DNA of 33,955 bases from NCBI RefSeq assembly GCF_028289705.1, contig NZ_JANQOI010000007.1:1-33955 (forward strand). Direction: 5' to 3'. Shown one piece after another: positions 3,119 to 29,256 of the stretch (the first letter of the stretch is position 1; each line of letters starts with the position of its first letter). The position numbers and the translations under genes are program-made. The notes below the pieces were generated by a model, which saw only the letters and a program-made list of their open reading frames with translations, was not told the origin of the DNA and searched no databases. The stretch comes from Pelagibius sp. Lineage in GTDB: Bacteria; Pseudomonadota; Alphaproteobacteria; Kiloniellales; Kiloniellaceae.

Positions 3119-3157
3119 TGTGACCGCGTCCCCTCCCCAAGGACATCAGGGTTACAC

Positions 3158-3176
3158 ATCGGGCGAAGCGCCCTTA
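3158..3176 (-). terminator. Possible attenuating hairpin between binding-protein and permease genes
   Basis: In the minus-strand transcript, GGGCG (loop CTT) CGCCC forms a 5-bp stem-loop about 15 nt after the stop of the binding-protein gene and before the DppB-like start. No U tract follows. Such hairpins commonly stabilise or partly terminate the message so that binding protein outnumbers permease. This role is inferred. Confidence 0.35.
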
Positions 3177-3188
3177 GCACTCCGGCCT

Positions 3189-5136: not shown

Positions 5137-6081
5137 TCAACATGGGGGCGCGGCCGCGTTTGGCTTATGACGGCTTTGACGCACGAGAATGACGAGGCCA
5201 CTGGCCATGATCAGCGCCATCCCGGCGACATCCCAGCCGTCCGGCACCTCGGCGAAGAACAGCCAGCCGAGCAGCCCGGCCCAGAACAGCCTGAGATAGT
5301 CCAGCCCACCCACAGCAACGGAGGAGGCCAGGCGGAAGGCCAGCGTCAGCAAAAGCTGCACCGCGAAAGCCAGCAGCGACAATCCGACCAGCAGCGGCCA
5401 GACCTCGGCGGCGCGCAGCCGCGCTACCGCCGCTTCGCCGTCGACGGCCGCCAGCAACGGGCCGCAGGCGACCGCGCCCATGGCGGCATAGAAAAACAGG
5501 ACGGCGAAGTTGGAACTCGCCGCCGGCATGAGGCGCAGGACGATCAGCATGCAGGCCGCGAGAAAAGAGCCGACCAGGATCACCAGAGCGAAGACGTTGA
5601 AGGCGGCGGCGCTCGGCCGCAGAACGATCAGCGCCCCGGCGAAACCCACCGCGATCGCCAGCCAATCGAGCCTGTCCGGCCGCTCACCCAACAGCGGGAT
5701 CGCCAGCAGGACAACGAACATCGGCGTGGTGAAGTTGATCGCCGTGACCGTGATCAGCGGCAGATGGGCGAGCGCCACGTAGAAACAGGCCATCGACGAG
5801 AGGCCGAAGGCGGCATGCCAGAGATGGGCCGGCTTATGGGCTCGCCGCAAGGCATCGACGTTGGCGGCAAGCGCCAAGGCCGGCAACAACAGCAGCAGGA
5901 CCAGGACGGAGCGCACCGCCATGATCTCCATGGCGCCGATCTCGTAGGTGTCGAGGACCTTGACGCAGAGCCCCATCAGGGGAATCACGACGGTGGTGCC
6001 GAGCATGGCGGCGACGCCGATGAGCGGACGGGGCGCCATGCGGTCCGTGCCGGCGCCCCGGTCTGCCGCCATCAGCCGCAC
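5137..6081 (-). CDS. DMT-superfamily permease (EamA-type, ten helices)
   Basis: A 314-residue integral membrane protein with two EamA repeats of about five helices each. The first runs from GVAAMLGTTVVIPLMGLCVK to AVGFAGALIVLRPS and the second from FNVFALVILVGSFLAACMLI to ALIMASGLVILV. The family exports or exchanges small metabolites and amino acids across the inner membrane; direction and substrate cannot be read. The frame opens with GTG at 6081. An ATG at 6072 or 6039 (MAPRPLIGV, just before helix 1) could be the true start, and no ribosome-binding site decides between them. It lies 23 bases after the CMD-family gene and is last in the long operon, so it may release a pathway product or take in a related compound. 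Confidence 0.85.
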   Translation of the reverse strand: MRLMAADRGAGTDRMAPRPLIGVAAMLGTTVVIPLMGLCVKVLDTYEIGAMEIMAVRSVLVLLLLLPALALAANVDALRRAHKPAHLWHAAFGLSSMACFYVALAHLPLITVTAINFTTPMFVVLLAIPLLGERPDRLDWLAIAVGFAGALIVLRPSAAAFNVFALVILVGSFLAACMLIVLRLMPAASSNFAVLFFYAAMGAVACGPLLAAVDGEAAVARLRAAEVWPLLVGLSLLAFAVQLLLTLAFRLASSVAVGGLDYLRLFWAGLLGWLFFAEVPDGWDVAGMALIMASGLVILVRQSRHKPNAAAPPC

Positions 6082-6104
6082 CCATCGGGCGGCAGCCCCG
6101 ACAC

Positions 6105-6512
6105 CTAGGCCTCTTCGGGCACGTCCTGGTCGACCCAGCCCTTGCCTTCCTGGAGTTCCTTGAAGGCCCGGCAGGAGGCTTCGAACGAGGGAACGCCGGC
6201 CGGCAGGGCGGCCATGAAGGCGGCCTCATAGACCTCCTGCCAGGTGGCGCCGTTCTTGATCGCGCGGGCCGCCGCCCACTCGATCCCCTCGCGGTCGCCC
6301 TTGACCGCGGTGGTCACGCCGACGAGGACCAGAAAGCGGGTCTTCAGGTCGAGGGCGCGGCCCTCCTCCTCGCCGAAGAGGGCGTAGGATGCGAGATTAC
6401 CATAGCGCTTCAGCAGTTCCGGATTGAGTTCCGCCAGGATGTCGTGGAACGGCAGGGTATAGCCGCGCACCGCGCGGATCTTTTCGAGCTCTTCTTTGCC
6501 CTCGGGTGTCAT
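6105..6512 (-). CDS. Carboxymuconolactone decarboxylase (CMD) family protein
   Basis: A small 135-residue all-helical protein. LPFHDILAELNPELLKRYGN followed by LDLKTRFLVLVGVTTAVKGD, then AARAIKNGATWQEVYEAAFM, matches the CMD fold. The redox CxxC of the AhpD branch is absent; the only Cys is near the C-terminus (EASCRAFKE). The His of gamma-carboxymuconolactone decarboxylase near the start of the core helix is replaced (EGIEWAAARA). It may therefore be neither a peroxidase partner nor a classical decarboxylase. AAGGAGG sits 11 bases before the ATG. It lies between the OYE flavoprotein (55-base gap) and the DMT permease, so it probably acts in the same pathway, with function unknown. Confidence 0.8.
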   Translation of the reverse strand: MTPEGKEELEKIRAVRGYTLPFHDILAELNPELLKRYGNLASYALFGEEEGRALDLKTRFLVLVGVTTAVKGDREGIEWAAARAIKNGATWQEVYEAAFMAALPAGVPSFEASCRAFKELQEGKGWVDQDVPEEA

Positions 6513-6567
6513 GACGATCGTCGCCTCCTTACCTGATGAGAATGAAAAATCCGGTGATGGCTGCTCG

Positions 6568-8592
6568 CTAGAGAGCGCGGCCCGCGCGCTCGCCCTCCTT
6601 GATGGCGTCGTTGGCGCGGCGCGGCGCCAGCGCGTCGCCGATCAGGTGCAAGTCGAGCGCGGCGCCCTCCGCCTGTAGCTCGTGGAACAGCGCGTCGCGG
6701 GCGCGGGCGCCGACCATCAGAACCACATCGTCGGCCGGGATCTCCACCGCTGCGCCGGTGTAGAGATCGCGGCAGAGGGCGCGGCCCGGCTCCACGGCGG
6801 TCAGTTCCACATCGACCCTGAAGTCCATGCCGAGCCGGCGCAGCATGCCGTGGGTCTTGCCCCAGTCGCGGCTGGCGGCGAGGTCCGGCGAGGGCTGGCC
6901 GAGCTGGGTCGCGAAGGTCACGCGGTGGCCGCGCCGGATCAGAACCTCGGCCACGACGGCGGCTTGCCGCCCGCCCAGGGCATCGAAGACCAACACCGTC
7001 TCGCCCAGCGCCGGCAAATCGTTCAGCACATCCAGATAACCGTAGACCCTTGCGCCGTCGCAGCCCGGGACCGGCGGGCCGTTCCAGTTCTGCGGGCGCA
7101 AGGGGGTCCAGCCGTGGCGCAGCGCCTCGGCACCGGTGGCGATCACCGCCGCCTCGAAGCCCTCGGCGCGCAGCCGCTCGCTATCGGCCAAGGTCTGCAG
7201 ACGGACCCGCACGCCGGTCTCGGCGAGACGGTCGCTCAGCCAGTCGACGATCCCCACCAGCTCGCGGCGGCTTTCCGCCTGTGCCCAGAGCGCCACCTGC
7301 CCGCCCAGCCGGTCCTTCGCCTCAAACAGGGTCACCTCGTGGCCGCGCCGGGCCGCCGTCAGCGCCGCGCGCATGCCCGCCGGGCCACCGCCGACGACAG
7401 CGACCTTCTTCGGTTCGGCCACAGGCTTCAGCGTATCGTCGGAGAACTGCCGCTCCGCCCCGGCGGCGGGGTTGTGGATGCAGGCGATGGGGGCCTGGGC
7501 GAAGATGGTCGTCATGCACCAGTTGGCGCCGACACAGGGGCGCACCTCCCGCGCCCGGCCCGAAGCCGCCTTGTTCGCCCAATCCGGATCGGCAATGAGC
7601 TGGCGCGCCATGCCGATGAAATCGCAGTCGCCGGCGGCCAGGAAGCCCTCGGCTTCCGCTGGCGAGACGATCCGGCCGGCGCCGACCACCGGCAAGTCCA
7701 CCGCCTGTTTGATCTTGCGGGTCGCCGGCATCTGGTAGCCGTGCTCGCCCGGCGCGGTCGGATAGATCAGCATCCGGTCCACGTAGGTGCCCTGGGAAAC
7801 GGAGATGTAATCGATCTTCCCGGTCGCCTCGAGCCGCCGGGCGATATCGGCCCAGGCATCGGGCGTCAGCCCGCCCTCATGCCCGTCATCGCCGTTGATC
7901 CGCACGCCGACCACCAGCTCCGGCCCGGCCTCGGCCCGCGTCGCCTCGAGGATCTCCTCCACCACCCGCAGGCGGTTCTCGATGGACCCGCCGAAGGCGT
8001 CGTCGCGGTGGTTGGTGGCCGGCGAGAGGAACTGGTTCAGGAGATAGCCGTGCGACATGCCGTGCACCTCGATGCCGTCCAGCCCGCCTTCCCGGGCATA
8101 GCGGGCAGACAGCCGATAGCCCTCGACGATCTTGTCGATATCGGCGGCGGTCATGACGTGAGGCATCTCCCGATAGACCGCACAAGGCACGGCGGAGGGG
8201 GCCCAGACCGGCAGGCCATTGGTCACCGAATTGGTCTGCCGCCCGCGGTGCCAGGGCTGGGCGAAGATCAGCGCGCCTTCGGCCTGCACCGGTCCCGCGA
8301 TCTTCCGGTACTGCTCGACCATCCGCGGGTCGAAGGCAAAGGCCTTGCCCTTGTAGGGCTGGGTCGTCGGATGGGTGGCCATCGCCTCCATGGTGATGAC
8401 GCCAACCCCGCCGCGCGCCCTGGCGACGTAGTAGGCGACATGCTCCTCGGTGAACAGATGATCCTTCACCAGCAGGGTCGCATGGGCCAGCATCCACACG
8501 CGGTTACGCGCCGTCCTGGGGCCCAGGCGCAAGGGACTCAGCAAGGTGGGAAAGGCCGGCGCGGCCGCGGCAGCAGACGAACTATCGGTCAT
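6568..8592 (-). CDS. Large OYE-family FMN/FAD oxidoreductase (2,4-dienoyl-CoA reductase/TMADH-like)
   Basis: A 674-residue two-module flavoenzyme. Residues about 13-350 are the FMN TIM barrel (TLLSPLRLGPRTARNRV; HGYLLNQFLSPATNHRDD; FGGSIENRLR). A cysteine region follows, then a Rossmann FAD/NAD(P) module with GGGPAG at 401-406. The family reduces enoyl groups or oxidatively demethylates amines. In the iron-sulfur segment the cysteines are C353, C359 and C371, but the usual second Cys is Ala356 (CVGANWC). I recall CVGA-type motifs in some amine-demethylase relatives, so this may be a branch trait rather than damage. The paralogue at 17930-19948 has all four Cys. It follows the importer ATPase with a 36-base gap, which suggests it acts on the imported compound. 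Confidence 0.9.
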   Translation of the reverse strand: MTDSSSAAAAAPAFPTLLSPLRLGPRTARNRVWMLAHATLLVKDHLFTEEHVAYYVARARGGVGVITMEAMATHPTTQPYKGKAFAFDPRMVEQYRKIAGPVQAEGALIFAQPWHRGRQTNSVTNGLPVWAPSAVPCAVYREMPHVMTAADIDKIVEGYRLSARYAREGGLDGIEVHGMSHGYLLNQFLSPATNHRDDAFGGSIENRLRVVEEILEATRAEAGPELVVGVRINGDDGHEGGLTPDAWADIARRLEATGKIDYISVSQGTYVDRMLIYPTAPGEHGYQMPATRKIKQAVDLPVVGAGRIVSPAEAEGFLAAGDCDFIGMARQLIADPDWANKAASGRAREVRPCVGANWCMTTIFAQAPIACIHNPAAGAERQFSDDTLKPVAEPKKVAVVGGGPAGMRAALTAARRGHEVTLFEAKDRLGGQVALWAQAESRRELVGIVDWLSDRLAETGVRVRLQTLADSERLRAEGFEAAVIATGAEALRHGWTPLRPQNWNGPPVPGCDGARVYGYLDVLNDLPALGETVLVFDALGGRQAAVVAEVLIRRGHRVTFATQLGQPSPDLAASRDWGKTHGMLRRLGMDFRVDVELTAVEPGRALCRDLYTGAAVEIPADDVVLMVGARARDALFHELQAEGAALDLHLIGDALAPRRANDAIKEGERAGRAL

Positions 8593-8628
8593 GCTAGATC
8601 CAGTGTTGAGAAGAAAAAGGGGGAGCGG

Positions 8629-9660
8629 TCATCGCGGGATCTGATTGCCGCCCTCGGGAATTCTGAGACAGGCCGCGCGATGCCCGTCGTCGCCGACCGG
8701 CACCATCTGCGGCACCTCTTGCCCGCAACGCGGCTGCACCACCGGGCAGCGGGCGGCAAAGGGGCAGCCCTCGGGCAGGTCGATGGGGCTGGGGATCTCA
8801 CCCTCCAGGACGTGACGGGTCAGCCGCGCGCGCGGGTCGGGCGGCAGATGCGCCGAGATCAGGGCCTGGGTGTAGGGATGGGCGGGCCGCTCGAAGACCT
8901 CCTGCGCCGCGGCGTATTCGACGATGGAGCCCAGATAGAGCACCACGATGCGGTCGGAGATCAGGCGGACCGTGCCCAGGTCGTGGCTGATGAACAGCAT
9001 CGCTACCTGGGTTTCGTCGCGCAGCTCGGCGAGCAGTTCCAGGATCCCAGCGCGCACCGAGAGATCGAGGGAACTGGTGGGCTCATCGAGCACCACGAGC
9101 TTGGGGTTGGTCGCGATCGCCCGGGCGATGCAGACCCGCTGCAACTGGCCGCCCGAGAGGTCTGCGGTATAGCGGTCCAGGAAAGCCGTCGAGAGGTGCA
9201 CGCGGTCGGCCAGTTCTTCGACCCGCCGGCGGCGCTCCGCGGAACTCAGGGGCGTATGCAGTTTCAGCGGTTCGCCGATCAGCGCCGATACCTTCATCCT
9301 GGGGTTCAGGGCACCCCAGGGGTCCTGGAACACGATGCTCATGTCCGCACGCAGGGGGCGGCACTCCCGCTCCGGCAGGGCCGAGATGTCGCGGCCGCGG
9401 AAGCGCACGGTCCCGGAGGTCGGCTTCAGAAGGCGCAGCACCATCCGGCCGACGGTCGACTTGCCGGACCCGCTCTCGCCGACCATGCCGAGCACCTCGC
9501 CGGGGCGGATCGAGAAACTGACGCCGTTGACCGCGTGGACGACCTGGCCGTTGTCCGCCGGGAAGTGCTTGACGAGGTTCTCGGCCGCCAGAACGGGCTC
9601 GACGGCGGGCTCCGGCGCGGCCGCTGCCGATACCTGAGGGGCCGCTTCGCGTTCGGTCAT
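8629..9660 (-). CDS. Peptide-type ABC transporter ATPase (DppF-like), second system
   Basis: ATPase of 343 residues. It has Walker A GESGSGKS (61-68), Q-loop IVFQDPWGALNPR, signature LSGGQLQRV, Walker B LVVLDEPTSSLD and switch ISHDLGTVR. The C-terminal cysteine set CPFAARC, PRC and AAC is the Dpp/Opp iron-sulfur type. The open frame extends 15 codons further to an ATG at 9705, but that would overlap the DppD-like gene. The ATG at 9660 (MTEREAAPQV) lies 5 bases after that gene's stop and is preferred. The Ala/Pro-rich N-terminus (residues 10-25) is a low-complexity leader, not a domain. Partner of the ATPase at 9666-10655. Confidence 0.93.
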   Translation of the reverse strand: MTEREAAPQVSAAAAPEPAVEPVLAAENLVKHFPADNGQVVHAVNGVSFSIRPGEVLGMVGESGSGKSTVGRMVLRLLKPTSGTVRFRGRDISALPERECRPLRADMSIVFQDPWGALNPRMKVSALIGEPLKLHTPLSSAERRRRVEELADRVHLSTAFLDRYTADLSGGQLQRVCIARAIATNPKLVVLDEPTSSLDLSVRAGILELLAELRDETQVAMLFISHDLGTVRLISDRIVVLYLGSIVEYAAAQEVFERPAHPYTQALISAHLPPDPRARLTRHVLEGEIPSPIDLPEGCPFAARCPVVQPRCGQEVPQMVPVGDDGHRAACLRIPEGGNQIPR

Positions 9661-9665
9661 GGCGC

Positions 9666-10655
9666 TCACTGAAAGGCCGCCGGCAGGTTGCCCGCGAAAT
9701 GGCACCGCGCGACCTGTCCGGCACCGATTTCGCGGTCCGGCGGGGCCGAGCCGCAGACCTCAGCGGCGTGGGGACAGCGGCCGCGGTAGTGGCAGCCCTC
9801 CGGCAGGGCATAGAGGTCCGGCGGCGGCCCGCCGACGATGGCGCCGCTGCCGAGGGCCAGCCGCTCCGGCGTCGCCGAGATCAGCGCCTGCGTATAGGGA
9901 TGGGCCGGTCCGGCAAAGACACTGTCGACCGGCCCGCTCTCGACGATGGCGCCGGCGAACATGACCGCCATGCGGTCGCAGTAGTGGGCCACCACGCCCA
10001 GATCGTGAGTGATCACGATGGCCGCCATGTCCATGCGCCGCACCATGTCGCGCAGGAGGTCCAGGATCTGCGCCTGCACCGTCACGTCCAAGCCGGTGGT
10101 GGGTTCGTCGGCGATCAGGAGCTTAGGCTCGTTGATGAGGGCCATGGCAATGAGCACGCGCTGGGCCATGCCGCCGGACAGCTCGTGCGGCCAGGCCCGC
10201 ATCCGTCGCTCCGGCGCCGGGATGCCGACCGCCGCCATCATGTCGATGGCCCGCTCACGCGCCTGGGCCACCGACACCTTGCGATGGGCGCGGTGCACGC
10301 GGATCAGTTGGTCGCCGATGCGGGTCAGGGGATCGAGCGAGGTGAGCGGGTTCTGAACGACCAGGGCGATCTCGTTTCCCCGCAAGGCGTTGAGCGCGCC
10401 CGGGTCCATGGAGAGGAGGTCGCGGCCGTCGAATTCGACCAGTCCGTCCACCACCTTGGCCGGCGGCCGCAGCAGGCCGATCATCGACTGCGCGGTCAGG
10501 GACTTGCCGGCCCCCGTCTCGCCCACCAGCCCCAGCACCTCACCGCGCCCGAGGCTGAAACCGACGCCATTGATGGCCTTGGCCACACGGACCTGGTTGT
10601 CGAGATCCCGGCTGATGAACCGGGTCTGAAGGTCGTCGACCTGCAGCAGCGCCAT
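9666..10655 (-). CDS. Peptide-type ABC transporter ATPase (DppD-like), second system
   Basis: ATPase of 329 residues starting MALLQVDDLQTRF. Walker A is GETGAGKS (45-52). The signature is LSGGMAQRV, Walker [13 protein letters not shown] and the switch [13 protein letters not shown]. The C-terminal oligopeptide region holds CHYRGRC, EVC and RC, again the four-cysteine cluster pattern. A GGGAGG ribosome-binding site lies 9 bases before the ATG. It sits 13 bases after the DppC-like gene and 5 bases before the DppF-like gene. Sequence differences from the ATPase at 154-1209 show that the two importers are old paralogues and not a recent duplication. Confidence 0.95.
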   Translation of the reverse strand: MALLQVDDLQTRFISRDLDNQVRVAKAINGVGFSLGRGEVLGLVGETGAGKSLTAQSMIGLLRPPAKVVDGLVEFDGRDLLSMDPGALNALRGNEIALVVQNPLTSLDPLTRIGDQLIRVHRAHRKVSVAQARERAIDMMAAVGIPAPERRMRAWPHELSGGMAQRVLIAMALINEPKLLIADEPTTGLDVTVQAQILDLLRDMVRRMDMAAIVITHDLGVVAHYCDRMAVMFAGAIVESGPVDSVFAGPAHPYTQALISATPERLALGSGAIVGGPPPDLYALPEGCHYRGRCPHAAEVCGSAPPDREIGAGQVARCHFAGNLPAAFQ

Positions 10656-10668
10656 CGCGGGAGCCTCC

Positions 10669-11556
10669 CTATGCCTTGCGGCGCGGGTTCAGGAGGTCCT
10701 GCAGCCCGTCGCCCAGCATGTTGAGGCCCAGCACCATGAGGATCAGCGCGATCCCCGGGAACAGCGCCACCCACCACTGGCCGGTCACCATGAACTCCGC
10801 ACCCTGGCGGATCATGGCGCCCCATTCGGGGGTCGGCGCCTGGATGCCGACGCCGAGGAAAGCCAGGGTCGCGCTGATCCGGACCGCCCAGGCGGCCCGC
10901 ACCGCGGTCTGCGCCATGGCCCCTTGGATCGCGTTGGGCAGCAGGTGGACGAAAAGGATGCGGCGCGTCGGATTGCCGGCGGCGATGGCGCTCTCCACGA
11001 AGGTGCTGGAGCGCAGAGCCAGCACCTCCGAGCGCACCACCCGCGCGAAAATCGGCGAGTCGAGCACCCCGATCACCAGGACCACGTTGACCAGCGACTG
11101 CCCGGTCGCCGCAACCACGGCCAGCGCCAGGATGATCGACGGGAAGACGCGCAGCGCATCGAACACCCGCATGGTCACCTCGTCGACATAGCCGCCGACA
11201 TAGCCGGTCCACAAGCCCAGCGGGACGCCGATCACGATCGACAGGATGACCGCCGGGATAGCGATGCCGAAGGCGTAGCGCGCGCCGTAGATGACCCGGC
11301 TGAAGACGTCCATGCCGTTGCCGTCGGTTCCCAGCCAGAACTCGGAATTGGGCGCGGTCAGGATCTCGCGCGGAAAGGCGGCGATGGGGTCGTAGGGCAT
11401 CACCAGCGGCGCGAACACGGCCAGGCCGGCGAAGCCGGTCAGGATCGCCATGCCGATGGCCGCCGTGGGGCTGCGCCGGGCGATGCCGACGATCCGCGCC
11501 AGCGCGCGCGGCATCCCGGCAGCGTCCCTGGTGGGTCTGAGCGACGCCTCGGTCAT
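10669..11556 (-). CDS. Peptide-type ABC transporter permease (DppC-like), second system
   Basis: Permease of 295 residues. The reading frame is open far upstream (to 12129) across the DppB-like gene, but the real start is the ATG at 11556 (MTEASLRPTRDAAG), whose ATGA overlaps the stop of that gene. Helix 1 is at about residues 31-52 (AAIGMAILTGFAGLAVFAPL). LGTDGNGMDVFSRVIYGARY opens the core domain. The EAA loop is STFVESAIAAGNPTRRILFV followed by HLLPNA, and LAFLGVGIQAPTPEWGAM closes the family pattern. It forms the pore with the DppB-like subunit. Confidence 0.95.
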   Translation of the reverse strand: MTEASLRPTRDAAGMPRALARIVGIARRSPTAAIGMAILTGFAGLAVFAPLVMPYDPIAAFPREILTAPNSEFWLGTDGNGMDVFSRVIYGARYAFGIAIPAVILSIVIGVPLGLWTGYVGGYVDEVTMRVFDALRVFPSIILALAVVAATGQSLVNVVLVIGVLDSPIFARVVRSEVLALRSSTFVESAIAAGNPTRRILFVHLLPNAIQGAMAQTAVRAAWAVRISATLAFLGVGIQAPTPEWGAMIRQGAEFMVTGQWWVALFPGIALILMVLGLNMLGDGLQDLLNPRRKA

Positions 11557-12569
11557 GGCTGCTCGCTGGCGCGCGGCTCCAGGATCACGACCAGCAGGTC
11601 GATGATCAGGAACACCAGGACCGAGAACAGGGCCAGCGCCAGGACGTATCCCTGCACGGCCGCGAAGTCGCCGGCCACGATGGCGTTCAGCCCGTATTGG
11701 CCGAGGCCGCCCCAGGCGAAGACATACTCGATCAGCGAGACGGTGCCGACGAGGCCGGTCAGTTCGGTCCCGACAAAGGTCATCACCGGGACGGTCGAGT
11801 TGCGCAGCACGACGCGGCGCACGATCGCCTCGGGCAGACCCGAGGCGCGGGCATAGCGCACGGAATCGGAGCCGACGACCTCCAGGGCGATGGCGCGGGT
11901 GTGCTTGATGATCGGCGCCGCCGCGACGATAGCCACGCAGATCACCGGCAGCACCAGGTGAGAGGCTGCCGAGCGGGCCGCCTCCCAACTCCCCTGCAGC
12001 AGGCTGTCGATCAGATAGCTGCCGGTGATCGGCTCGGGCGGGATGACGATCAGCCCGATCCGCCCGATCCCCGGCGGCGCCCAGCCGAGCAGATAGAAAA
12101 ACACGAACAGCATCACCAGACCCAGCCAATAGGTCGGGATGGAAAAGCCGAGCAGCGACAGGAAGCGGGAGACATGATCGAAGGCCCGGCCCGGCCGGAA
12201 TGCCGCGTGAAGCCCGACCGGGATGGCGATCAGCGCGCCGATGCCTACGCCCCAGAACAGCAGTTCGAGGGTGATGGGAATGCGCTGCAGGATGTCGGAG
12301 AGGACCGGGCGGTTCGACAGCCAGCTCTCGCCCAGGTCCCCTTGCACGACGTTGGTCATGTAGTAGGAGAACTGCACGAAAAGCGGCTGATCGAGGCCCA
12401 GATCGCGGGTGATCATATCGATCTCCGCCTGGGTCGCGGTCGGGCCGGCAAGCAGCCCGACCGGATCCTGGCTGCCGATACGCACCAGCATGAAGGTGAA
12501 GAACAGGATCCCCACCAGCAGCGGCACGATCATCAGAAAGCGCCGACTGAGAAAGCGTCGAATTCTCAC
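11553..12569 (-). CDS. Peptide-type ABC transporter permease (DppB-like), second system
   Basis: Permease of 338 residues starting with GTG (MRIRRFLSRRFLMIVPLL). The first helix is at about residues 11-32. After it the DppB hallmark is altered: RIGSQDPVGLLAGPTATQ in place of the usual PGDP motif. The EAA loop SDSVRYARASGLPEAIVRRV with VLRNSTVPVM and the C-terminal FAWGGLGQYGLNAIV are recognisable. The ribosome-binding site is weak (GAGG upstream). It follows the binding-protein gene by 63 bases and overlaps the DppC-like gene by four. Confidence 0.93.
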   Translation of the reverse strand: MRIRRFLSRRFLMIVPLLVGILFFTFMLVRIGSQDPVGLLAGPTATQAEIDMITRDLGLDQPLFVQFSYYMTNVVQGDLGESWLSNRPVLSDILQRIPITLELLFWGVGIGALIAIPVGLHAAFRPGRAFDHVSRFLSLLGFSIPTYWLGLVMLFVFFYLLGWAPPGIGRIGLIVIPPEPITGSYLIDSLLQGSWEAARSAASHLVLPVICVAIVAAAPIIKHTRAIALEVVGSDSVRYARASGLPEAIVRRVVLRNSTVPVMTFVGTELTGLVGTVSLIEYVFAWGGLGQYGLNAIVAGDFAAVQGYVLALALFSVLVFLIIDLLVVILEPRASEQP

Positions 12570-12632
12570 TGCGTGTTCCGCCCTCGGCCCGGAGTCAAGG
12601 CACGCCGCAGCCCGTCAGCGCCTGAACGGGGC

Positions 12633-14222
12633 TCACTTTGCAATCGACAGATCGGCCCAGCGCTCATGGGTGTCCGGATAGTCCATCCACCCGACGATGT
12701 TCGGGGCCATGGCCTCGAAGGCTGAAGCATACAGCGTCATGATCCAGGGCGCATCCGCCAGCCAGAGCTGCTGCGCCTCGCGCATCATTGCCAGCCTTTT
12801 CCCGCTGTCCAGGGTCTCGCGCGCCGCGTCGATCAGCCGGTCGACCTCGGGATTGTTGTAGCGCGAGCGGTTCGACACACCCTTGCTGTGGGCCAGCAGA
12901 TACATGGTGTAGACGGGGTCGAGCACGATGGGCGGGTTCTGAAAGGCGAAGAAGGGCATGTCCTGCACCGCCGGCGCCCCGCGCGAACGCATGTCCGAGC
13001 TGGTGATCCGGGTCGGCTTGACCGTCACGCCGGCATCCCGAAGCTGATCGGCGATCTGGATGGCCATGGGCTGCTGCCACCAGTTCATATCCGAATAGAG
13101 CAGCTCGACCTCGAAACCCTCCGCATAGCCGGCCTCGGCCAGCAGCGCCTTGGCCTTGGCCGGATCGTGGTCATAGCCGAAGGTGCTGTCGTCATACCCT
13201 TCGATGACCGAGGGCACGACGGAGCGGGCGATGCTCCCGGTGCCCTGGAAGACGGCCTCCTGAAGGCTGTCCTGGTCGATGGCGTAGTTCAGCGCCCGGC
13301 GCACCCGGACATCGTCGAAGGGCTTGAAGGTGCCGTTCATGCGCACGCTGGCCAAGGCCACGCCGACGGCTTCCTCGACCTTGACCGAGTCGTCCTTGCG
13401 CAGGTCGACGACCTGCTGAACCGAAGGCCGTTCGATCCAATGGACCTGACCGGTCTTCAGCAGGGTCACCCGGCTGGCGCCGGAAGGAACCGCACGATAG
13501 ATCACACGGTCGAAGTAAGGCTTCTCACCGAAGTAGTTCTCGTTGTGGACGAAGACCGCCTGCTCGCCCGGCCGCAACTGCGCCAGGTGATAGGCCCCGA
13601 AGCCGGCCGTGTGTTCCTGCAGCCAAGTCAGGCCCAAGGGATCGTCCGCCGTCGCGTGCTGCTTCACCGTCTCGCTGTCGTAGATCCCAGGCACGTAGAG
13701 CGTCAGCGCCTTCAGAAAGATCGAACTCGGCGCCGACAGCGTGAAGGCGACTTCATAGCGCGAGACCTCCTCAACCCCGGAGACGTTGGACACCCGGGCG
13801 ATGAAGTTGCCGGTCCGCTTCTGGGCGAAGGACTTGTTCCACGACCAGACCACGTCGGCGGCAGTTAGCTCGTTGCCGTGGGGGCTCTTGATGCCCTGAC
13901 GCAGCGTGAACACCCAGCGCTTGCCGTCCTCGGAAGTTTCCCAGCTTTCCGCCAGATGGCCTTCGATGACCGAACTGTCGAGGCTTTCGCGACCCTGCGC
14001 GTCGGTGGTCCGGCCGTAGCGGACCAGCGGTTCGTAGACCTGGGTCACCACGTTTTGCGTCTGCGGGCGCAGCGCATCGCCGTCGAAGCCTTCCGGCGTG
14101 CCCGGCGCCGCGAGCACCAGAGTCTCGGCCAGTGCCCCGGAAACCCCCAGGCCCAGGGCCAGGATACCGGCGCCCACAACAACGGCGGCGCCGCGCACCG
14201 CCCGCGTCCAGATGGTCATCAT
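12633..14222 (-). CDS. Periplasmic binding protein, family 5, tandem copy A
   Basis: A 529-residue periplasmic binding protein with a Sec signal at about residues 1-32 (ends SGALAE). Family-5 blocks include YEPLVRYGR, LAESWETSEDGKRWVFTLRQ and VRVRRALNYAIDQD. Two ATG codons stand in tandem (14222 and 14219). A GGGAG-type site lies just upstream. It is a near copy of the gene immediately upstream (14277-15872). From the signal-peptide end to about residue 280 I count 8 differences in roughly 246 residues. In the remaining C-terminal half I count about 70 in 250. Both copies precede the permease genes, so both probably feed the same importer with different substrate preferences. Confidence 0.95.
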   Translation of the reverse strand: MMTIWTRAVRGAAVVVGAGILALGLGVSGALAETLVLAAPGTPEGFDGDALRPQTQNVVTQVYEPLVRYGRTTDAQGRESLDSSVIEGHLAESWETSEDGKRWVFTLRQGIKSPHGNELTAADVVWSWNKSFAQKRTGNFIARVSNVSGVEEVSRYEVAFTLSAPSSIFLKALTLYVPGIYDSETVKQHATADDPLGLTWLQEHTAGFGAYHLAQLRPGEQAVFVHNENYFGEKPYFDRVIYRAVPSGASRVTLLKTGQVHWIERPSVQQVVDLRKDDSVKVEEAVGVALASVRMNGTFKPFDDVRVRRALNYAIDQDSLQEAVFQGTGSIARSVVPSVIEGYDDSTFGYDHDPAKAKALLAEAGYAEGFEVELLYSDMNWWQQPMAIQIADQLRDAGVTVKPTRITSSDMRSRGAPAVQDMPFFAFQNPPIVLDPVYTMYLLAHSKGVSNRSRYNNPEVDRLIDAARETLDSGKRLAMMREAQQLWLADAPWIMTLYASAFEAMAPNIVGWMDYPDTHERWADLSIAK

Positions 14223-14276
14223 GCTTCTCTCGCTCCCGTTCTTCTTCGTTTTATGACTGGCAATGGCCGGCGGCCG

Positions 14277-15872
14277 CTACTGACGCCTCAGGTCAATCCA
14301 GCGTTCATGGTCGTCGGAATGCGGCACCCAGCCGACGATGTCCGGTGCCATGGCCTCGAAGACCGAGGGATAGATCGCGATCAGCCATGGCGAGTCCTGC
14401 AGCCAGAGCTGCTGCGCCTCCCGCATCATGCCGAGCCGGTCTTCGGCGTTCAGGGTCTTCCGTGCCTCGTCGATCAAGGCATCGACCTGCGGGTTGTTGT
14501 AACCGGCGCGGTTGGACACGCCCTTGCTGTGGGCCATGAGGTAGAAGGCGTAGACCGGGTCCAGCACGATGGGGCCATCCTCGAAGGCGAAGAACGGCAT
14601 GTCCTGCACCGCCGGCGCCCCGCGCGAGCGCATGTCGGAGCCGGTGATCCGGGTCGGCTTTGCCGTCACGCCGGCGGCCCGCAACTGGTCGGCGACCTGA
14701 ATGGCGATGGGCTCCAGCCACCACCAGAGATCGGAATAGAGCAGCTCGACCTCGAAACCCTCCGCATAGCCGGCCTCGGCCAGCAGTGCCTTGGCCTTGT
14801 CGGGGTCGTGGTCATAGACGAAGGCGCTGTCGTCATAGCCTTCGATGAACGGCGGCACCAACGACTTGGCGAAGGCCCCGGTTCCGAAGAACACCGCCTC
14901 GCGGATCGCGTCCTTGTCGACGGCATAGTTCATCGCCCGGCGCACCCGGACGTCGTCGAAGGGCGCGAACTTGGGGTTCATGCGGACACCGGCGATGGCG
15001 CGCCCCTGGGATTCGAGCACCTTGACCGAGGCGTCGTCGCGCAGGTCGACGACCTGCTGGACAGAGGGCCGGTCGATCCAGTGCACCTGGCCCGTCTTCA
15101 GCAGGGTCACACGGCTGGCACCAGAAGGAACCGCACGGTAGATCACCCGGTCGAAGTAGGGCTTCTCCCCGAAGTAGTTCTCGTTGTACACGAACACCGC
15201 CTGCTCGCCTGGCCGCAACTGCGCCAGGTGATAGGCCCCGAAGCCCGCGGTGTTCTCCTGCAGCCAGGTCAGACCCCAGGGGTCCTCCGCCGTCGCGTGC
15301 TGCTTCACCGTCTCGCTGTCGTAGATCCCGGGAACGTAAAGCGTCAGCGCCTTCAGAAAGATCGAACTCGGCGCCGACAGCGTGAAGGCGACCTCGTAGC
15401 GCGAGACCTCCTCAACCCCGGAGACGTTGGACACCCGGGCAATGAAGTTGCCGGTGCGCTTCTGGGCGAAGGACTTGTTCCACGACCAGGCAACATCGGC
15501 GGCGGTCAACTCGTTGCCGTGGGGGCTCTTGATGCCCTGGCGCAGGGTGAACACCCAGCGTTTGCCGTCCTCGGAGGTCTCCCAGCTTTCCGCCAGATGG
15601 CCCTCGACGACAGAGCTGTCGAGGCGTTCGCGCCCTTGCGCGTCGGTGGTGCGGCCATAGCGGACCAGCGGTTCGTAGACCTGGGTCACCACGTTCTGCG
15701 TCTGCGGGCGCAGCGCATCGCCGTCGAAGCCCTCCGGCGTGCCCGGCGCCGCGAGCACTAGCGTCTCGGCAAGCACAGGCGCCCCGGACATCCCTAAACC
15801 GAGCGCCAGGATACCCGCACCCGCAACAACGGCGGCGCGCCGCACCGCCCACCTCATCGAACTCTCGCGCAT
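14277..15872 (-). CDS. Periplasmic binding protein, family 5, tandem copy B
   Basis: A 531-residue paralogue of copy A. The frame is open to 16136, but the start is the ATG at 15872 (MRESSMRWAVRRAAVVAG), which has GGGAGGAG 7 bases upstream and gives a normal signal peptide ending VLAE. The N-terminal half is nearly identical to copy A. The C-terminal half differs at likely ligand-contacting stretches, for example SDLWWWLEP against SDMNWWQQP. The two genes are 54 bases apart. An 88-base spacer with a small hairpin separates this gene from the DUF2848 gene. It is the first transporter gene of the long operon. Confidence 0.95.
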   Translation of the reverse strand: MRESSMRWAVRRAAVVAGAGILALGLGMSGAPVLAETLVLAAPGTPEGFDGDALRPQTQNVVTQVYEPLVRYGRTTDAQGRERLDSSVVEGHLAESWETSEDGKRWVFTLRQGIKSPHGNELTAADVAWSWNKSFAQKRTGNFIARVSNVSGVEEVSRYEVAFTLSAPSSIFLKALTLYVPGIYDSETVKQHATAEDPWGLTWLQENTAGFGAYHLAQLRPGEQAVFVYNENYFGEKPYFDRVIYRAVPSGASRVTLLKTGQVHWIDRPSVQQVVDLRDDASVKVLESQGRAIAGVRMNPKFAPFDDVRVRRAMNYAVDKDAIREAVFFGTGAFAKSLVPPFIEGYDDSAFVYDHDPDKAKALLAEAGYAEGFEVELLYSDLWWWLEPIAIQVADQLRAAGVTAKPTRITGSDMRSRGAPAVQDMPFFAFEDGPIVLDPVYAFYLMAHSKGVSNRAGYNNPQVDALIDEARKTLNAEDRLGMMREAQQLWLQDSPWLIAIYPSVFEAMAPDIVGWVPHSDDHERWIDLRRQ

Positions 15873-15934
15873 GTCGTCTCCTCCCAGTTCCGCGCGCCCC
15901 GCAGCAGCGGCGCTTCGGCGCGAATTCATGGCTC

Positions 15935-15950
15935 GTGCCCCTACGGGCAC
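15935..15950 (-). terminator. Small hairpin after the DUF2848 gene
   Basis: GTGCCC-CTAC-GGGCAC forms a perfect 6-bp stem with a 4-base loop, 10 bases after the DUF2848 stop on the minus strand. There is no T run. It could stabilise or partly end the upstream message, giving the binding-protein genes their own expression level. Confidence 0.35.
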
Positions 15951-15960
15951 CCCTTCGGTC

Positions 15961-16716
15961 TCAGGCCGATGCGGCAACAGCCGATCCGTCGCCGGTGACG
16001 ACCGGTACGCGGTAGTCCGGAGCCAGCGCATCGAACATCTCGACGACCCTATAGGCGTGGTCGATGCGGCGGCCCGCGCTCGGATCGTCGAGCTGGAACC
16101 GCCAGTCCCGGCCGAAACCGAGGCGCTTGTCGACACTGACGATGGTGCCGCAGAACACCATCACATCCCGTTCCGGCAGACCGGGCGCCCGTTCGGCCAA
16201 AATCGCCAGGACATCGTCCGGATGCAGGAAGGCGGCCACCGAAACCTCCTGATAGAGCCGGTCGTCGACCCAACTGCGCAGGACGCAGTCGTCCCAATGA
16301 TCGCGGATCTCCTCCAGGGGCCACAGCACCGGCGCCAGGACGTTCGGACAGACCTGCTTCGACCAGGGGATCGAAACACGCTCCAGGGCGCGGTCGGTAT
16401 GGTCGCTGCCGACACCGACCAGAACGCGGCCGTCGCCGTCCCGCGCGACCACGATCTCCACCTCGCCCGAGGTCTCTTCGGTATGCACCTCGACCGACGT
16501 CCCGGTGGTCAGCGCATGGCTGCCGATCGGATAGATGCGCGGCGCCGGAACCGACGTCGCGATGCGGATACCGTGCTTGGCGACCTCGTCCCGGTGGGCG
16601 ACGGCAGTCTGCGGATCGCGGGTGGCGGAGCCGAGATTGACCATGCGCTCCACGGTGAGCGTGACCGCGCCGTCGCCGCCGTTCAGGCATTGCACCGTGA
16701 GGGGCACCGCAATCAT
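15961..16716 (-). CDS. DUF2848 family protein (possible FAH-like hydrolase)
   Basis: A 251-residue soluble protein that I recognise as DUF2848. Key blocks are VGVGSDHTDR (100-109), SKQVCPNV (119-126), EIRDHWDDCVLRSW (136-149) and MVFCGTIVS. No signal peptide or membrane segment is seen. DUF2848 has no assigned reaction; the layout recalls fumarylacetoacetate-hydrolase-like enzymes, which cleave C-C bonds of oxo-acids, but that link is from memory and not established. The ATG at 16716 overlaps the dioxygenase stop by four bases, so it is translationally coupled to that enzyme and probably acts on its product or next intermediate. Confidence 0.82.
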   Translation of the reverse strand: MIAVPLTVQCLNGGDGAVTLTVERMVNLGSATRDPQTAVAHRDEVAKHGIRIATSVPAPRIYPIGSHALTTGTSVEVHTEETSGEVEIVVARDGDGRVLVGVGSDHTDRALERVSIPWSKQVCPNVLAPVLWPLEEIRDHWDDCVLRSWVDDRLYQEVSVAAFLHPDDVLAILAERAPGLPERDVMVFCGTIVSVDKRLGFGRDWRFQLDDPSAGRRIDHAYRVVEMFDALAPDYRVPVVTGDGSAVAASA

Positions 16717-17801
16717 CGCTCGCTCCCCGTTTGCGGGCGCTCGGCCAGATCGAGGGCGACCGGGTCGACCCCCGGCCCGCGGTGGCGCGCCCAGAGCCAG
16801 ATGCGCTTTAGCACCCGGCGGGCGCCGCCGTCGGGCGCATCGGCATAGGCGAGCCGGCCGTGCAGGGTCGTGAGATTGTTGGTGAACAGAAGGTCGCCGG
16901 CCTTCAGGCGATAGCGCCAGGCTAGGTCTTCACGCTCCAAGAGATGGTCGACAAGATCGAGCGCCTCGCGCATCGCGCCTTCGAGCGTCAGCCCGGCCAG
17001 TTCCATGCCCGGATCGATCATCACCCGGGCATAGTGAACGTTGAGATCGCCCCCCTCGCCCAGATCGAACACCGGCTTGACGACGGTCTCGGGGCCGGCC
17101 GGCCAGGCGTGCAACTGCGGGGGGCGAAAGTGATAGGGGCGATAGAGCCAGGGCAGCAGATCGGGCCGCGCCTCGGCGATTTCCCTATGCAGAGTCTCCG
17201 CTGAAATGATCGTGCTGTCGCCGCCCTGGGCCGCGTTTTGCACGCACAGCAGGGCGATATAATCCGGCGGCCGCGGCTCCAGACAGCCGTTGTCGGAGTG
17301 CATCCGGGAAAGCTTGGCCGATGCGCCGATCCGTGTGGGATCGGTGTTCGCAGCCCCCCTGTCGGTCACGGTGAAGAGCCGCCGGTCGACGTTCAGACCC
17401 TGCCGGATGGGCCGCCCCACATAGTTCGCCAGTCCCCAGGCCGTAATCCCGGCCGCCTCCTCATCGGCAATGTCCAGCGGCACGCCACGCAAGACGACGA
17501 CGCCGGCCCCCGCGTCCAGGCGGCGGCGGATCTCCGCGGCCATTGGCGCAAAGGCCGGCACGCGGAAGTCCTCCTGCTCGAAGGTCTCGAGGGTCAGCCC
17601 GTTCGCACGGATGAAGCCCAGCGCGGCCGCAATCTCTTCGGCGGCCCGCGCCGGCAGATCGCAAAACACCTCGGCCGCGCGCGCGTCGAGGCCGGCCCGG
17701 TCCCATTGCCGGGGGGCATGCGCCACATGGCTCGGAACGGCCGGAGGCCGGCAAGTCGCATCCAAGGATGTCAACGCCCCGACGCCTGATGGACCCGCCA
17801 T
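16713..17801 (-). CDS. TauD/TfdA-family Fe(II)/2-oxoglutarate dioxygenase
   Basis: A 362-residue cytoplasmic enzyme of the non-heme iron dioxygenase family, which couples 2-oxoglutarate decarboxylation to hydroxylation, desaturation or demethylation of a substrate. The iron facial triad is visible: H168 and D170 in RMHSDNGC, and H314 in TTLHGRLAY. The 2-oxoglutarate-binding Arg is probably R333 in RRVLKRIWLW. The central GGDSTIISAETLHRE block is typical of the TauD fold. The first 35 residues are variable, so a later start is possible. First gene of the long operon, with a good promoter on the minus strand at 17862-17890. It probably performs the first oxidative step on the imported compound; the substrate is unknown. 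Confidence 0.9.
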   Translation of the reverse strand: MAGPSGVGALTSLDATCRPPAVPSHVAHAPRQWDRAGLDARAAEVFCDLPARAAEEIAAALGFIRANGLTLETFEQEDFRVPAFAPMAAEIRRRLDAGAGVVVLRGVPLDIADEEAAGITAWGLANYVGRPIRQGLNVDRRLFTVTDRGAANTDPTRIGASAKLSRMHSDNGCLEPRPPDYIALLCVQNAAQGGDSTIISAETLHREIAEARPDLLPWLYRPYHFRPPQLHAWPAGPETVVKPVFDLGEGGDLNVHYARVMIDPGMELAGLTLEGAMREALDLVDHLLEREDLAWRYRLKAGDLLFTNNLTTLHGRLAYADAPDGGARRVLKRIWLWARHRGPGVDPVALDLAERPQTGSER

Positions 17802-17822
17802 CTCGCCACTGTCTCCCTCGCC

Positions 17823-17853
17823 TTGACCGGCTCAATAGTTATGTTGTTATACT
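17823..17853 (+). promoter_or_regulatory. Promoter for the second OYE flavoprotein gene
   Basis: The plus strand shows -35 TTGACC (17823-17828) and -10 TATACT (17848-17853) with a 19-base spacer, slightly long. The predicted transcript would start near 17860 and have a leader of about 70 bases before the GTG at 17930. The -10 lies inside the dyad at 17834-17856. Confidence 0.55.
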
Positions 17854-17856
17854 ATT
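17834..17856. promoter_or_regulatory. 23-base operator-like dyad between divergent promoters
   Basis: AATAGT-N11-ACTATT is a perfect 6-bp inverted repeat. Its right part includes TTGTTATACTA (17844-17854), which fits the GntR/FadR-type pattern TNGTNNNACNA. The dyad covers the plus-strand -10 and the expected start region of the minus-strand promoter, so one bound repressor could block both. The GntR protein at 20814-21617 is the nearest candidate, although it is a UTRA-type member and may prefer another pattern. Confidence 0.5.
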
Positions 17857-17861
17857 AGTTC

Positions 17862-17890
17862 ATTTCAGCTTGCACCCGGGTGGATGTCAA
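17862..17890 (-). promoter_or_regulatory. Promoter for the dioxygenase-led long operon
   Basis: The minus strand shows a perfect -35 TTGACA (17890-17885) and -10 TGAAAT (17867-17862, four of six consensus bases) with an ideal 17-base spacer. It points toward the dioxygenase start at 17801, with a leader of about 55 bases. Confidence 0.6.
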
Positions 17891-17929
17891 GCCGAAAACC
17901 CCGGGAAACCCGTTTGGAGGCCACAGGAC

Positions 17930-19948
17930 GTGACGCGGATCGACAGCGATCTCAGCAGCGGCGCGGCCGCCTATCCGGCCGCCTTTCGACCCCTGCGGGT
18001 CGGCGCCACCCAGCTCCGCAACCGGATCTTCATGCCTGCCCACACGACCAACTACGGCGAGGACAACCTGCCGTCGGAGCGGCACCTCGCCTATCATCGG
18101 GCCCGCGCGGCCGGCGGTGCGGCGCTGAACATTTTTGAGGGCATCCGCGTTCACCGCAGCTCGCTGGGCCGCCAACAAGGCGTCAATGGCTACGATCCGG
18201 CCTGTATCGACCGCTTCGCACGCATTGCCGAAGCCGTGCGGGACGAAGGGGGCCGGCTGTTCGGCCAGATCATTCATCTGGGCCGCCATATCGACGGCAA
18301 CTACACCAGAACGCCCGCCTGGGGCGCTTCGCCGATTCCCTGGGCGGCGACCGCGCCGCCGCCCCACCCCATGACCGAGGGCGAGATCCAGGAAGTGATC
18401 GAGGCCCATGCCCTGACCGCCGGGCATCTCGTCACGGCGGGGCTGGACGGGATCGAATTACAGCTCGCCCACGGCCACCTGCTTCAACAGTTCCTGTCGC
18501 CGGCCACCAATCATCGCGACGACTCCTGGGGCGGCACAGCGGAAAACCGTCTGCGCCTCGCCCGCGAGACGCTGGTGGCCGTGCGCGCGGCCGTCGGCCC
18601 GGAGGTCACCCTGGGCCTGCGCATCAGCGCCGAGGAGTGGCTGCCCGGCGGGCTGACACTGGACGACATGACCGGCATCACCCGCCGGCTCTGCGAGGCA
18701 GCCAGGGTCGACTTCGTCCATGTCTCCCACTCGGCCTATCACGGCAGTTGGACGGTCTCGACACAGATGGCCGACATGGCCTTCGATCCTGCCCTCTTCC
18801 GCCCTTTCGCCCCGGCGATCAAGGCTGCACTGGCCGACCTGCCCGATCCACCGGCGATCTTCGCGGTGTGCAAGTTCCGCAGCCTGGCCGAGGCCGAAAC
18901 GGTGTTGAGCGCGGGCGAGGCCGATATGGTCGGCATGGCGCGCGCCCACATCGCGGACCCGCAGATCGTGGCCAAATCGGCGGCCGGCCGAGAAGACGAA
19001 ATCCGCCCCTGTATCGGCTGCAACCAGGGCTGTGCGAACATGCTGGCGCAGAATCTGGCCATCACCTGCCTGTCCAATCCGCGCGCCGGCCGCGAGGGCA
19101 CGATCGCGGATGTGGAAGCCGACTCTGTCACCCGGCCGCGCCAGGTGCTCGTCGTCGGCGGCGGGCCGGCCGGTATGGAGGCGGCGGCGGCGGCCGCGGC
19201 CCGCGGCCATCAGGTGCAACTCTGGGAGGCCGGAGAGCGCCTGGGCGGCGCGCTGGCCTGGCTGGAAGCGATGCCGCTGCGCCATGACTTCCTGAAGCTG
19301 CTCGACTATCAGACCGCCGCCCTCGAACGGACAGGGGTCGCGGTGACGCTGGGCCGGACGGCCACCGCCGAGGCCATCGCCGCGGCTCAGCCGGACGCCG
19401 TTGTTCTGGCCACCGGCGCGGAGCCCACGCCCCTCGACCTGCCGGCCGGCGGCAGCGCGCTGACCCTGGAGGATGCGATCGCCGATCCGGATACGCTGGG
19501 CGCGCGCGTGGCCCTGGTGGATGTCCTCGGCGGCTGGTCGGTGGCGGCGACGGCGGAATGGCTCGCCGACCGCGGCCACAATGTGACCCTGATCGCCCCG
19601 ACGGGCACGCCCGCCTGGACGGTGAGCATCTATTCCAGCTTCGCGCTGCGCCGGCGCCTGAGCGAGAAGAAGGTCGCCATCCTGCCCCTGCAGACGGTCA
19701 CGGGATTCAGCGGCGGCCTCACCCGGCTCGTCGATCTCTCCACCGGCGCCGAGCGCGAAACCGGCGACTTCGACAGCGTGATCGCGCCGACCCATGCCCG
19801 GCCGCGCAACGCCCTCCACGACGAGCTGTCGGCCCTGTCGGCCGGGGGCAACCGCGTCATCGCCATCCACGCCGCCGGCGATTGCCAGGCCGCGCGCACG
19901 GCGCTGGAAGCGGTCTACGAGGGTTACGAGGCAGGTCGGCTGGCGTAG
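17930..19948 (+). CDS. Second large OYE-family FMN/FAD iron-sulfur oxidoreductase
   Basis: A 672-residue flavoenzyme paralogous to 6568-8592. The FMN barrel shows FRPLRVGATQLRNRIFMPAH, HGHLLQQFLSPATNHRDD and WGGTAENRLR. A complete 4Fe-4S motif follows, C361, C364, C368 and C380 (CIGCNQGC, then TCLSNP). The C-terminal dinucleotide module has GGGPAG at 410-415. The open frame reaches 17768, but that would start upstream of the promoter. The GTG at 17930 has TTTGGAGG 9 bases upstream and gives a length matching the paralogue. Transcribed divergently from the dioxygenase operon, so probably a later reductive or demethylating step of the same pathway. It ends 12 bases from the convergent SDR gene. 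Confidence 0.9.
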   Translation: MTRIDSDLSSGAAAYPAAFRPLRVGATQLRNRIFMPAHTTNYGEDNLPSERHLAYHRARAAGGAALNIFEGIRVHRSSLGRQQGVNGYDPACIDRFARIAEAVRDEGGRLFGQIIHLGRHIDGNYTRTPAWGASPIPWAATAPPPHPMTEGEIQEVIEAHALTAGHLVTAGLDGIELQLAHGHLLQQFLSPATNHRDDSWGGTAENRLRLARETLVAVRAAVGPEVTLGLRISAEEWLPGGLTLDDMTGITRRLCEAARVDFVHVSHSAYHGSWTVSTQMADMAFDPALFRPFAPAIKAALADLPDPPAIFAVCKFRSLAEAETVLSAGEADMVGMARAHIADPQIVAKSAAGREDEIRPCIGCNQGCANMLAQNLAITCLSNPRAGREGTIADVEADSVTRPRQVLVVGGGPAGMEAAAAAAARGHQVQLWEAGERLGGALAWLEAMPLRHDFLKLLDYQTAALERTGVAVTLGRTATAEAIAAAQPDAVVLATGAEPTPLDLPAGGSALTLEDAIADPDTLGARVALVDVLGGWSVAATAEWLADRGHNVTLIAPTGTPAWTVSIYSSFALRRRLSEKKVAILPLQTVTGFSGGLTRLVDLSTGAERETGDFDSVIAPTHARPRNALHDELSALSAGGNRVIAIHAAGDCQAARTALEAVYEGYEAGRLA

Positions 19949-19960
19949 CGACGTGCCCGC

Positions 19961-22900: not shown

Positions 22901-22954
22901 AACGGCTTTCCTCTCTGTTCTATCCGTTCAAAGGGGTGCTGCAGGATTCGGCAG

Positions 22955-24247: not shown

Positions 24248-24261
24248 ATCCGACGGCCCGC

Positions 24262-27720: not shown

Positions 27721-27744
27721 TCCGGAAGGACTCTCGGGGACTTT

Positions 27745-29251: not shown

Positions 29252-29256
29252 GACCG

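Follow-up and report, generated by a model that had tools for sequence, protein, structure and literature searches.

A conserved import and redox gene block in Pelagibius sp. joins a TauD-type dioxygenase with DUF2848, a probable relative of the FAH superfamily

A stretch of 33,955 nucleotides from Pelagibius sp. (RefSeq assembly GCF_028289705.1, contig NZ_JANQOI010000007.1; hereafter the window) contains a gene block at positions 5137–20710 that combines a binding-protein-dependent importer with several oxidoreductases and a protein of the DUF2848 family (Table 1). Read from right to left, the minus strand encodes a TauD-type dioxygenase, DUF2848, two family-5 solute-binding proteins (SBP5b and SBP5a), the transporter components OppB, OppC, OppD and OppF, a large flavoprotein of the OYE family (OYE1), a CMD-fold protein and an EamA-type permease. 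A second flavoprotein (OYE2) diverges from this series. A preliminary description had listed these genes, with their tight or overlapping junctions on one strand, and all of them are indeed present with scores above the Pfam cut-offs. It had, however, ended the cluster at 19948 and thereby left out the partner of OYE2, a short-chain dehydrogenase/reductase (SDR). The TauD and DUF2848 genes overlap by 4 bases and the open reading frames (ORFs) of OppD and OppF by 40; the remaining gaps are 13–88 bases, where the figure for OppB/OppC uses an assumed OppC start that is no start codon. The true start of OppC lies well inside its ORF, at roughly 11.5–11.6 kb, and the ORF starts of SBP5b and OYE2 are likewise too long. 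The source genome comprises 5.41 Mb on 193 contigs and is 96.9% complete. Neither tRNA genes (ARAGORN) nor Rfam matches at gathering thresholds were found in the window.

Table 1. Genes of the block, with ORF coordinates in the window and Pfam support (E values)
Gene product	Coordinates	Strand	Pfam match and remarks
EamA/DMT permease	5137–6081	−	PF00892 5.9e-18; final gene of the block
CMD-fold protein	6105–6512	−	PF02627 5.3e-9
OYE1, FMN barrel and pyridine-nucleotide domain	6568–8592	−	PF00724 2.2e-62; PF07992 4.8e-14
ABC ATPase, OppF-type	8629–9705	−	PF00005 9.3e-34; PF08352 1.6e-19
ABC ATPase, OppD-type	9666–10655	−	PF00005 2.9e-26; PF08352 3.5e-15
Permease, OppC-type (ORF)	10669–12129	−	PF00528 7e-28 (residues 300–484); OppC_N from residue 217
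Permease, OppB-type	11553–12569	−	PF00528 7e-34
SBP5a, family-5 solute-binding protein	12633–14222	−	PF00496 8.5e-81; diverged tandem copy
SBP5b, family-5 solute-binding protein	14277–16136	−	PF00496 1.2e-78; likely ATG start 15872
DUF2848, FAH-superfamily-like	15961–16716	−	PF11010 1.3e-49
TauD-type Fe(II)/2-oxoglutarate dioxygenase	16713–17801	−	PF02668 2e-31
OYE2, FMN barrel and pyridine-nucleotide domain	17768–19948	+	PF00724 1.7e-55; likely GTG start 17930
Classical SDR dehydrogenase	19961–20710	−	PF13561 2.7e-56

To see how far the set is conserved, 13 other loci encoding TauD orthologs (53–93% identity) were compared. Eleven of them belong to three families (f36, f135 and f30) other than that of the window (f1); the other two are contigs, L054 and L055. 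A locus was considered testable for a gene when its contig or the fetched stretch reached the expected place, as judged by hand from the contig ends. Genes in high-GC loci were called from ORFs and tblastn, by which accessory genes may be missed. L054 (MAG: Rhodospirillales bacterium isolate PL25a_bin.107) is nearly identical to the window (93–98% per protein; 92% for the neighboring GntR regulator). An SBP5 gene was present in the block of all 13 loci, DUF2848 beside TauD in all except that of genome G442, and Opp genes in 11 of 11 testable loci. OYE1 was encoded in six of eight testable loci (not in G218 and G088), each time with CMD beside it, although for G1132 only the first 30 CMD residues fell within the fetched stretch. 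OYE2 lay beside TauD in 8 of 11 (exceptions: G442, G447 and G449), and SDR accompanied it in five of these eight (not in L055, G218 and G088); apart from the near-identical L054, the SDR orthologs were those of G289, G773, G959 and G1132 (63–65%). In one remote family, G773, G959 and G1132 keep TauD, DUF2848, SBP5, OppBCDF, OYE1, CMD, SDR and OYE2 together. A further genome, G187, whose contig stops inside OppB, also has the series SDR-CMD-OYE1-OppFDCB. EamA orthologs follow CMD in G773 (48%) and G959 (46%) and are lacking there in L055, G289 and G449. Because gene order is retained in other families at ∼50–80% protein identity (46–48% for EamA), the linkage is more than chance, and the set almost certainly forms one conserved unit.

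Close TauD orthologs are rare. In a sample of the class, at least 15 of 385 genomes gave a match at E 1e-35, and at least four (source genome included) encoded a TauD with ≥55% identity; among the matches listed, the others reached at most 38%. In the window's own order (61 genomes), the best other match was 28% identical (E 2.5e-32). Counting the center genome in each case, 2 of 398 genomes of a phylum sample and 3 of 394 of family f30 matched at 1e-60; at 1e-50, f36 yielded 3 genomes out of 10 and f135 5 out of 23. A protein search of a plasmid collection returned 37 records with TauD relatives, all distant (<60% identity).

DUF2848 had been described as a family without an assigned reaction, which can now be improved upon, since profile comparison groups it with the FAH superfamily. 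A profile of 14 DUF2848 sequences aligned to a set of six FAA_hydrolase proteins from the same genome with an hhalign probability of 87.6 (E 3.5e-6); with seven FAA proteins the values were 83.0 and 9.1e-6, and with a 22-sequence DUF2848 profile 79.9 and 1.4e-5. All 20 column-shuffled controls gave E values of 0.063 or worse (up to 0.96), and four further controls (TauD, OYE, SBP and reversed FAA profiles) 0.12–0.4. Twenty-three residues are invariant in all 22 DUF2848 sequences, among them G28, H40, E43, E84, E86, D104, H105, T106, D107, R108, E111, K119, G189 and T190. These include a catalytic-type pattern (H40xxE43, E84xE86, D104 and K119), of which we take the ExE and the aspartate to be metal ligands, as judged from what is known of FAH enzymes and from the alignment. 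DUF2848 thus shares with members of the superfamily (FAHD1, the hydratases MhpD/DmpE, and HpaG) the profile, the HxxE dyad, the ExE...D pattern, the lysine and a GT motif; unlike them, it forms a Pfam family of its own. For FAHD1, an E33-H30 dyad, K123 and magnesium have been described (PMC8398924); the HxxE and the lysine of DUF2848 correspond to the dyad and to K123. Taken together, DUF2848 very probably belongs to the FAH superfamily. This relationship is new: in its conserved sequence, including residues of catalytic type, DUF2848 resembles a family of C–C bond-cutting enzymes.

The plasmid collection held 54 records with DUF2848 relatives, again all distant (<60% identity). In seven of these the neighborhood was inspected, and in all six that were annotated DUF2848 lies beside an amidase or nitrilase-type hydrolase, with MFS carriers in four; these neighbors imply that the family serves other pathways too. 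On four plasmids of different genera (L079, L080, L081 and L082) DUF2848 directly adjoins the amidase gene, and two of these plasmids also carry DUF4286 and MFS genes, a second genomic context for DUF2848. The DUF2848-TRAP operons of G002–G004 were rejected as orthologous clusters (DUF2848 33–38%, TauD 27–30%, and other neighbors). Six stretches of viral contigs with a DUF2848 pattern were found, none of which encodes a relative.

Both flavoproteins have the domain layout of FadH (2,4-dienoyl-CoA reductase), a layout shared with trimethylamine dehydrogenase (TMADH)-type enzymes. Among solved structures of this kind, 1ps9 ranks first for OYE1 and second for OYE2, and histamine and trimethylamine dehydrogenases are also among the structural relatives. 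OYE1 differs from FadH/TMADH-type flavoproteins in its iron-sulfur motif, C-x2-A-x2-C-x11-C, in which alanine stands for the second cysteine and three cysteines remain; the spacing presumably resembles that of TMADH. The sequence CVGANWC was found in 10 of 10 members (OYE1 and nine relatives, one of them on a Rhodococcus plasmid; tallies of OYE1 relatives from the genome search are "at least" values), so that OYE1, by sequence, defines a clade with an altered iron-sulfur motif. OYE2 has the full four-cysteine 4Fe-4S motif (CIGCNQGC..C), and four cysteines are also present in eight of eight aligned orthologs. Loss of the second cysteine is not confined to the OYE1 clade, as an OYE relative outside it (L093, 8352–10322), which adjoins an Opp-type operon, has glycine there. 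Because the active-site stretches differ between the OYE1 and OYE2 clades, and from FadH in both, the reaction (C=C reduction versus dehydrogenation) cannot be called. In NCBIfam, the four models that come nearest to either protein describe mycofactocin, BaiCD and bilirubin reductase families, the closest being mycofactocin FadH/OYE oxidoreductase 2 (TIGR03997), which aligned over nearly the full length. Assignment to this family was rejected (623.5 and 583.1 bits versus a cut-off of 793.15), as was a link to mycofactocin, the best maturase score in the source genome being 119.1 versus a cut-off of 265.

OYE1 is also found away from TauD. In G315, neither TauD nor DUF2848 is matched within the 20 kb around a relative with 53% identity and the same CVGANWC. 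The gene directly upstream of this OYE1 encodes an FAA_hydrolase (35.1 bits versus a cut-off of 23.9); 2-oxopent-4-enoate hydratase is its nearest match, though with a score far under the cut-off. A Rieske oxygenase with a VanA_C domain is encoded ∼2.5 kb from OYE1; EamA, SDR and SBP5 (31%) genes lie in the same 20 kb. This single case suggests a shared logic of oxygenase, FAH enzyme and OYE1, in which the FAA_hydrolase possibly replaces DUF2848. On a plasmid of Rhodococcus sp. USK10 (L069, 7685–15959), an OYE1 relative (49%, same alanine motif) lies near Amdase, aconitase and phosphoenolpyruvate (PEP) mutase/isocitrate lyase (ICL) genes, a neighborhood that suggests a dicarboxylate route. A PEP mutase/ICL-family gene likewise adjoins OYE2 in the SJ804 contig (L055, 6622–7626). 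In G447, G448 and G449, an OYE2 ortholog (54–56%) is encoded on another contig, near an SBP5 that is 53–54% identical to SBP5a; these contigs (L090, L091 and L092) also carry an extended SDR gene and, in G447 and G448, one for an S-adenosylmethionine (SAM) methyltransferase. No OYE2 match above 38% was found in G442 and G450 (75% complete).

CMD was rejected as 4-carboxymuconolactone decarboxylase PcaC (TIGR02425; 20.2 bits versus a cut-off of 155.7). A GMC oxidoreductase gene and then a small gene follow CMD in four of five testable loci (G289, G449, G773 and G959; not L055). GMC genes are also encoded in the vicinity of TauD or SDR in G289, G447, G449, G959 and G1132; Pfam GMC domains were confirmed on two G959 proteins. 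In G218 and G088, other GMC genes stand between OYE2 and TauD. GMC genes were located at L099 1252–2829 and 12712–14304, L096 4299–5843, L100 8755–10332, L085 509–2032 and L084 11242–12801. The related GMC proteins of L096, L099 and L100 contain the cysteine motif CNNCGPC, and the small gene that follows GMC in L084, L085, L096 and L099 has no Pfam match. Genes of the acetoacetate-decarboxylase (ADC) family adjoin OYE2 in G218 and G088, and they also occur on the G289 contig (near OYE2 or downstream of CMD: L057 5135–6043, L058 14135–14965 and L084 10010–10798).

In TauD, the HxD motif and the distal histidine and arginine, which we take to be the functional residues of an Fe(II)/2-oxoglutarate dioxygenase, are unchanged in all 10 orthologs aligned. 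Its best solved relatives, at low similarity, are FrbJ (E 2e-17) and a "predicted hydroxylase" (7n7v; E 7.1e-25), whose pathways presumably differ from that of this block. The third and last structural match was TmpA (E 5.8e-5).

The two binding proteins reported before are both present; they are, however, a tandem duplication (83.5% identical overall), whereas the blocks of other loci contain one such gene each, though L054 and L065 end inside the block. SBP5a and SBP5b (12633–15872) are identical at 251 of 267 positions (94%) in the N-terminal half and at ∼73% in the rest, a pattern that may reflect either recombination or a new ligand specificity. The closest solved relative of SBP5a is the dipeptide-binding protein DppA (E 3.8e-49), in which Arg355 and Asp408 are, as we assume, the ligand anchors. 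The position aligned with Arg355 is never arginine in 15 in-frame rows (rows L066 and L067 excluded; Trp 11, Pro 2, Ala 1 and Gly 1). At Asp408, where the alignment register is ambiguous by one, the pocket loop reads EDGP in every aligned block copy (10 of 11) except SBP5a, where it is QNPP. We infer that something other than a plain dipeptide is probably bound.

The fact that the gene set recurs in distantly related bacteria makes it very likely that the block degrades one specific compound. That it does so as a conserved catabolic island following a logic of import, oxygenation, redox chemistry and C–C cleavage is the reading we prefer, and we consider it moderately probable. The compound would be imported by the family-5 binding protein and OppBCDF and hydroxylated by TauD with Fe2+, O2 and 2-oxoglutarate, possibly as an O- or N-demethylation. 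The resulting alcohol would be oxidized to a carbonyl by SDR (in relatives also by GMC dehydrogenases), and OYE2 and OYE1 would reduce an activated C=C bond or dehydrogenate. DUF2848, as a metal-dependent enzyme of the FAH superfamily, might then cleave (or hydrate or decarboxylate) a 2-oxo or 1,3-dicarbonyl intermediate; CMD may act late, and EamA may export or import a side product. These kinds of enzymes are already known, whereas their combination is new. The preliminary description was in part upheld: its proposal that the genes serve a single pathway for an imported compound has good support in the co-occurrence of the set across genomes, the lack of which it had named as a refuting condition, and, as it had stated, no characterized pathway matched. 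An N-methylated or ring compound as the substrate, which it had also suggested, is a possibility. No paper on this gene set or naming DUF2848 was found in a literature search whose coverage left out most subscription journals and preprints; under PF11010, titles and the openings of abstracts concerned only malaria, further apicomplexan parasites and a heart device.

A betaine or methylamine route would read the same genes differently, with TauD acting like γ-butyrobetaine (GBB) or trimethylaminoethylphosphonate dioxygenase, the OYEs like TMADH or dimethylglycine demethylase, and GMC like choline dehydrogenase. TmpA and GBB dioxygenase are in fact the best NCBIfam matches of TauD, but both lie so far below cut-off (44.3 versus 400 and 32.2 versus 414.75 bits, respectively) that TauD was rejected as a betaine-type dioxygenase. 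The amine dehydrogenases among the structural relatives of the OYEs fit such a route, as would a tryptophan-rich loop and acidic residues in the pocket region of the binding proteins, which could suit a cation; the four nearest NCBIfam models of the OYEs do not. The GMC protein of G088 scores above the threshold of PRK02106, a model of the choline dehydrogenase subfamily (632.2 versus 605), but below that of betA (547.7 versus 732.1). To our knowledge, none of the established betaine routes includes an enzyme of the FAH type. We regard this alternative as unlikely. We are equally reluctant to split the block into separate modules (OYE1-CMD, TauD-DUF2848-Opp and OYE2-SDR) that travel together and have no single common substrate. 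The absence of OYE1-CMD from G218 and G088, the placement of OYE2 elsewhere in G447–G449 and the OYE1 of G315 without a nearby TauD would be explained in this way; however, an SBP5 belonging to the same group is encoded close to the unlinked OYE2, and the set is retained in distant families at ∼50–80% identity. That the block instead makes or modifies a small secreted molecule, for which EamA (in the window, G773 and G959) and the SAM methyltransferases that some relatives encode near OYE2 might speak, is very improbable, as the import system is, together with TauD, the most conserved part and FAH and CMD enzymes are mostly catabolic.

Several observations weigh against the catabolic island itself. 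OYE1 and CMD are missing near the block in G218 and G088, and DUF2848 and OYE2 beside TauD in G442; the corresponding steps are thus not universal. OYE1 relatives occur with no TauD nearby (G315 and the Rhodococcus plasmid), and the Rieske and FAA genes of G315 are separated by two opposite-strand genes and, hence, need not belong together. The window gave no match to the GMC proteins of G959 or G218/G088, which leaves SDR alone for alcohol oxidation there. SAM methyltransferases encoded close to OYE2 (G447 and G448), or on the contig in the case of G289, would be compatible with biosynthesis. The PF01557 FAA_hydrolase model does not match the DUF2848 of the window at E 0.001, and an AlphaFold prediction from a 3-row alignment was poor (pLDDT 39.6), so that only sequence speaks for the FAH fold. 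The sequence of steps proposed above is conjectural.

Mycosporines and gadusol are methoxylated cyclic 1,3-dicarbonyl or enaminone compounds. That the island degrades such a compound, conjugated to an amino acid, is a far-fetched possibility. TauD would strip the enol methyl ether, SDR/GMC would oxidize the hydroxymethyl group, the OYEs would act on the cyclohexenone, and DUF2848 would open the cyclic 1,3-dicarbonyl by FAH-type C–C hydrolysis; the VanA-type Rieske oxygenase near the FAA hydrolase and OYE1 of G315 might be a parallel solution for demethylation. In a literature search on bacterial mycosporine breakdown, no title or abstract opening was evidently about a pathway. Should an abundant natural product turn out to be the substrate of the island, an unrecognized route in its turnover would come to light. 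In any case, DUF2848, a family seen in bacteria of soil and plants, where an amidase is often its neighbor, becomes testable as an FAH-type enzyme, and the set is compact and conserved, with binding proteins that can be screened for the substrate.

The block is flanked by other uptake systems. Directly downstream of EamA, at 154–4721, lies a second, different Opp-type operon, which was rejected as part of the block: its binding protein, the only component compared, had no match of ≥40% in the 13 loci. On the other side (20814–33692), further uptake systems follow in series, with genes for a GntR/UTRA regulator, TRAP DctP/DctM, a PotABC-like importer with SBP8, an M20 peptidase, and RraA-like, LysR and NMT1-like proteins. 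A GntR match of ≥40% was found in only one of the 13 loci, the near-identical contig.

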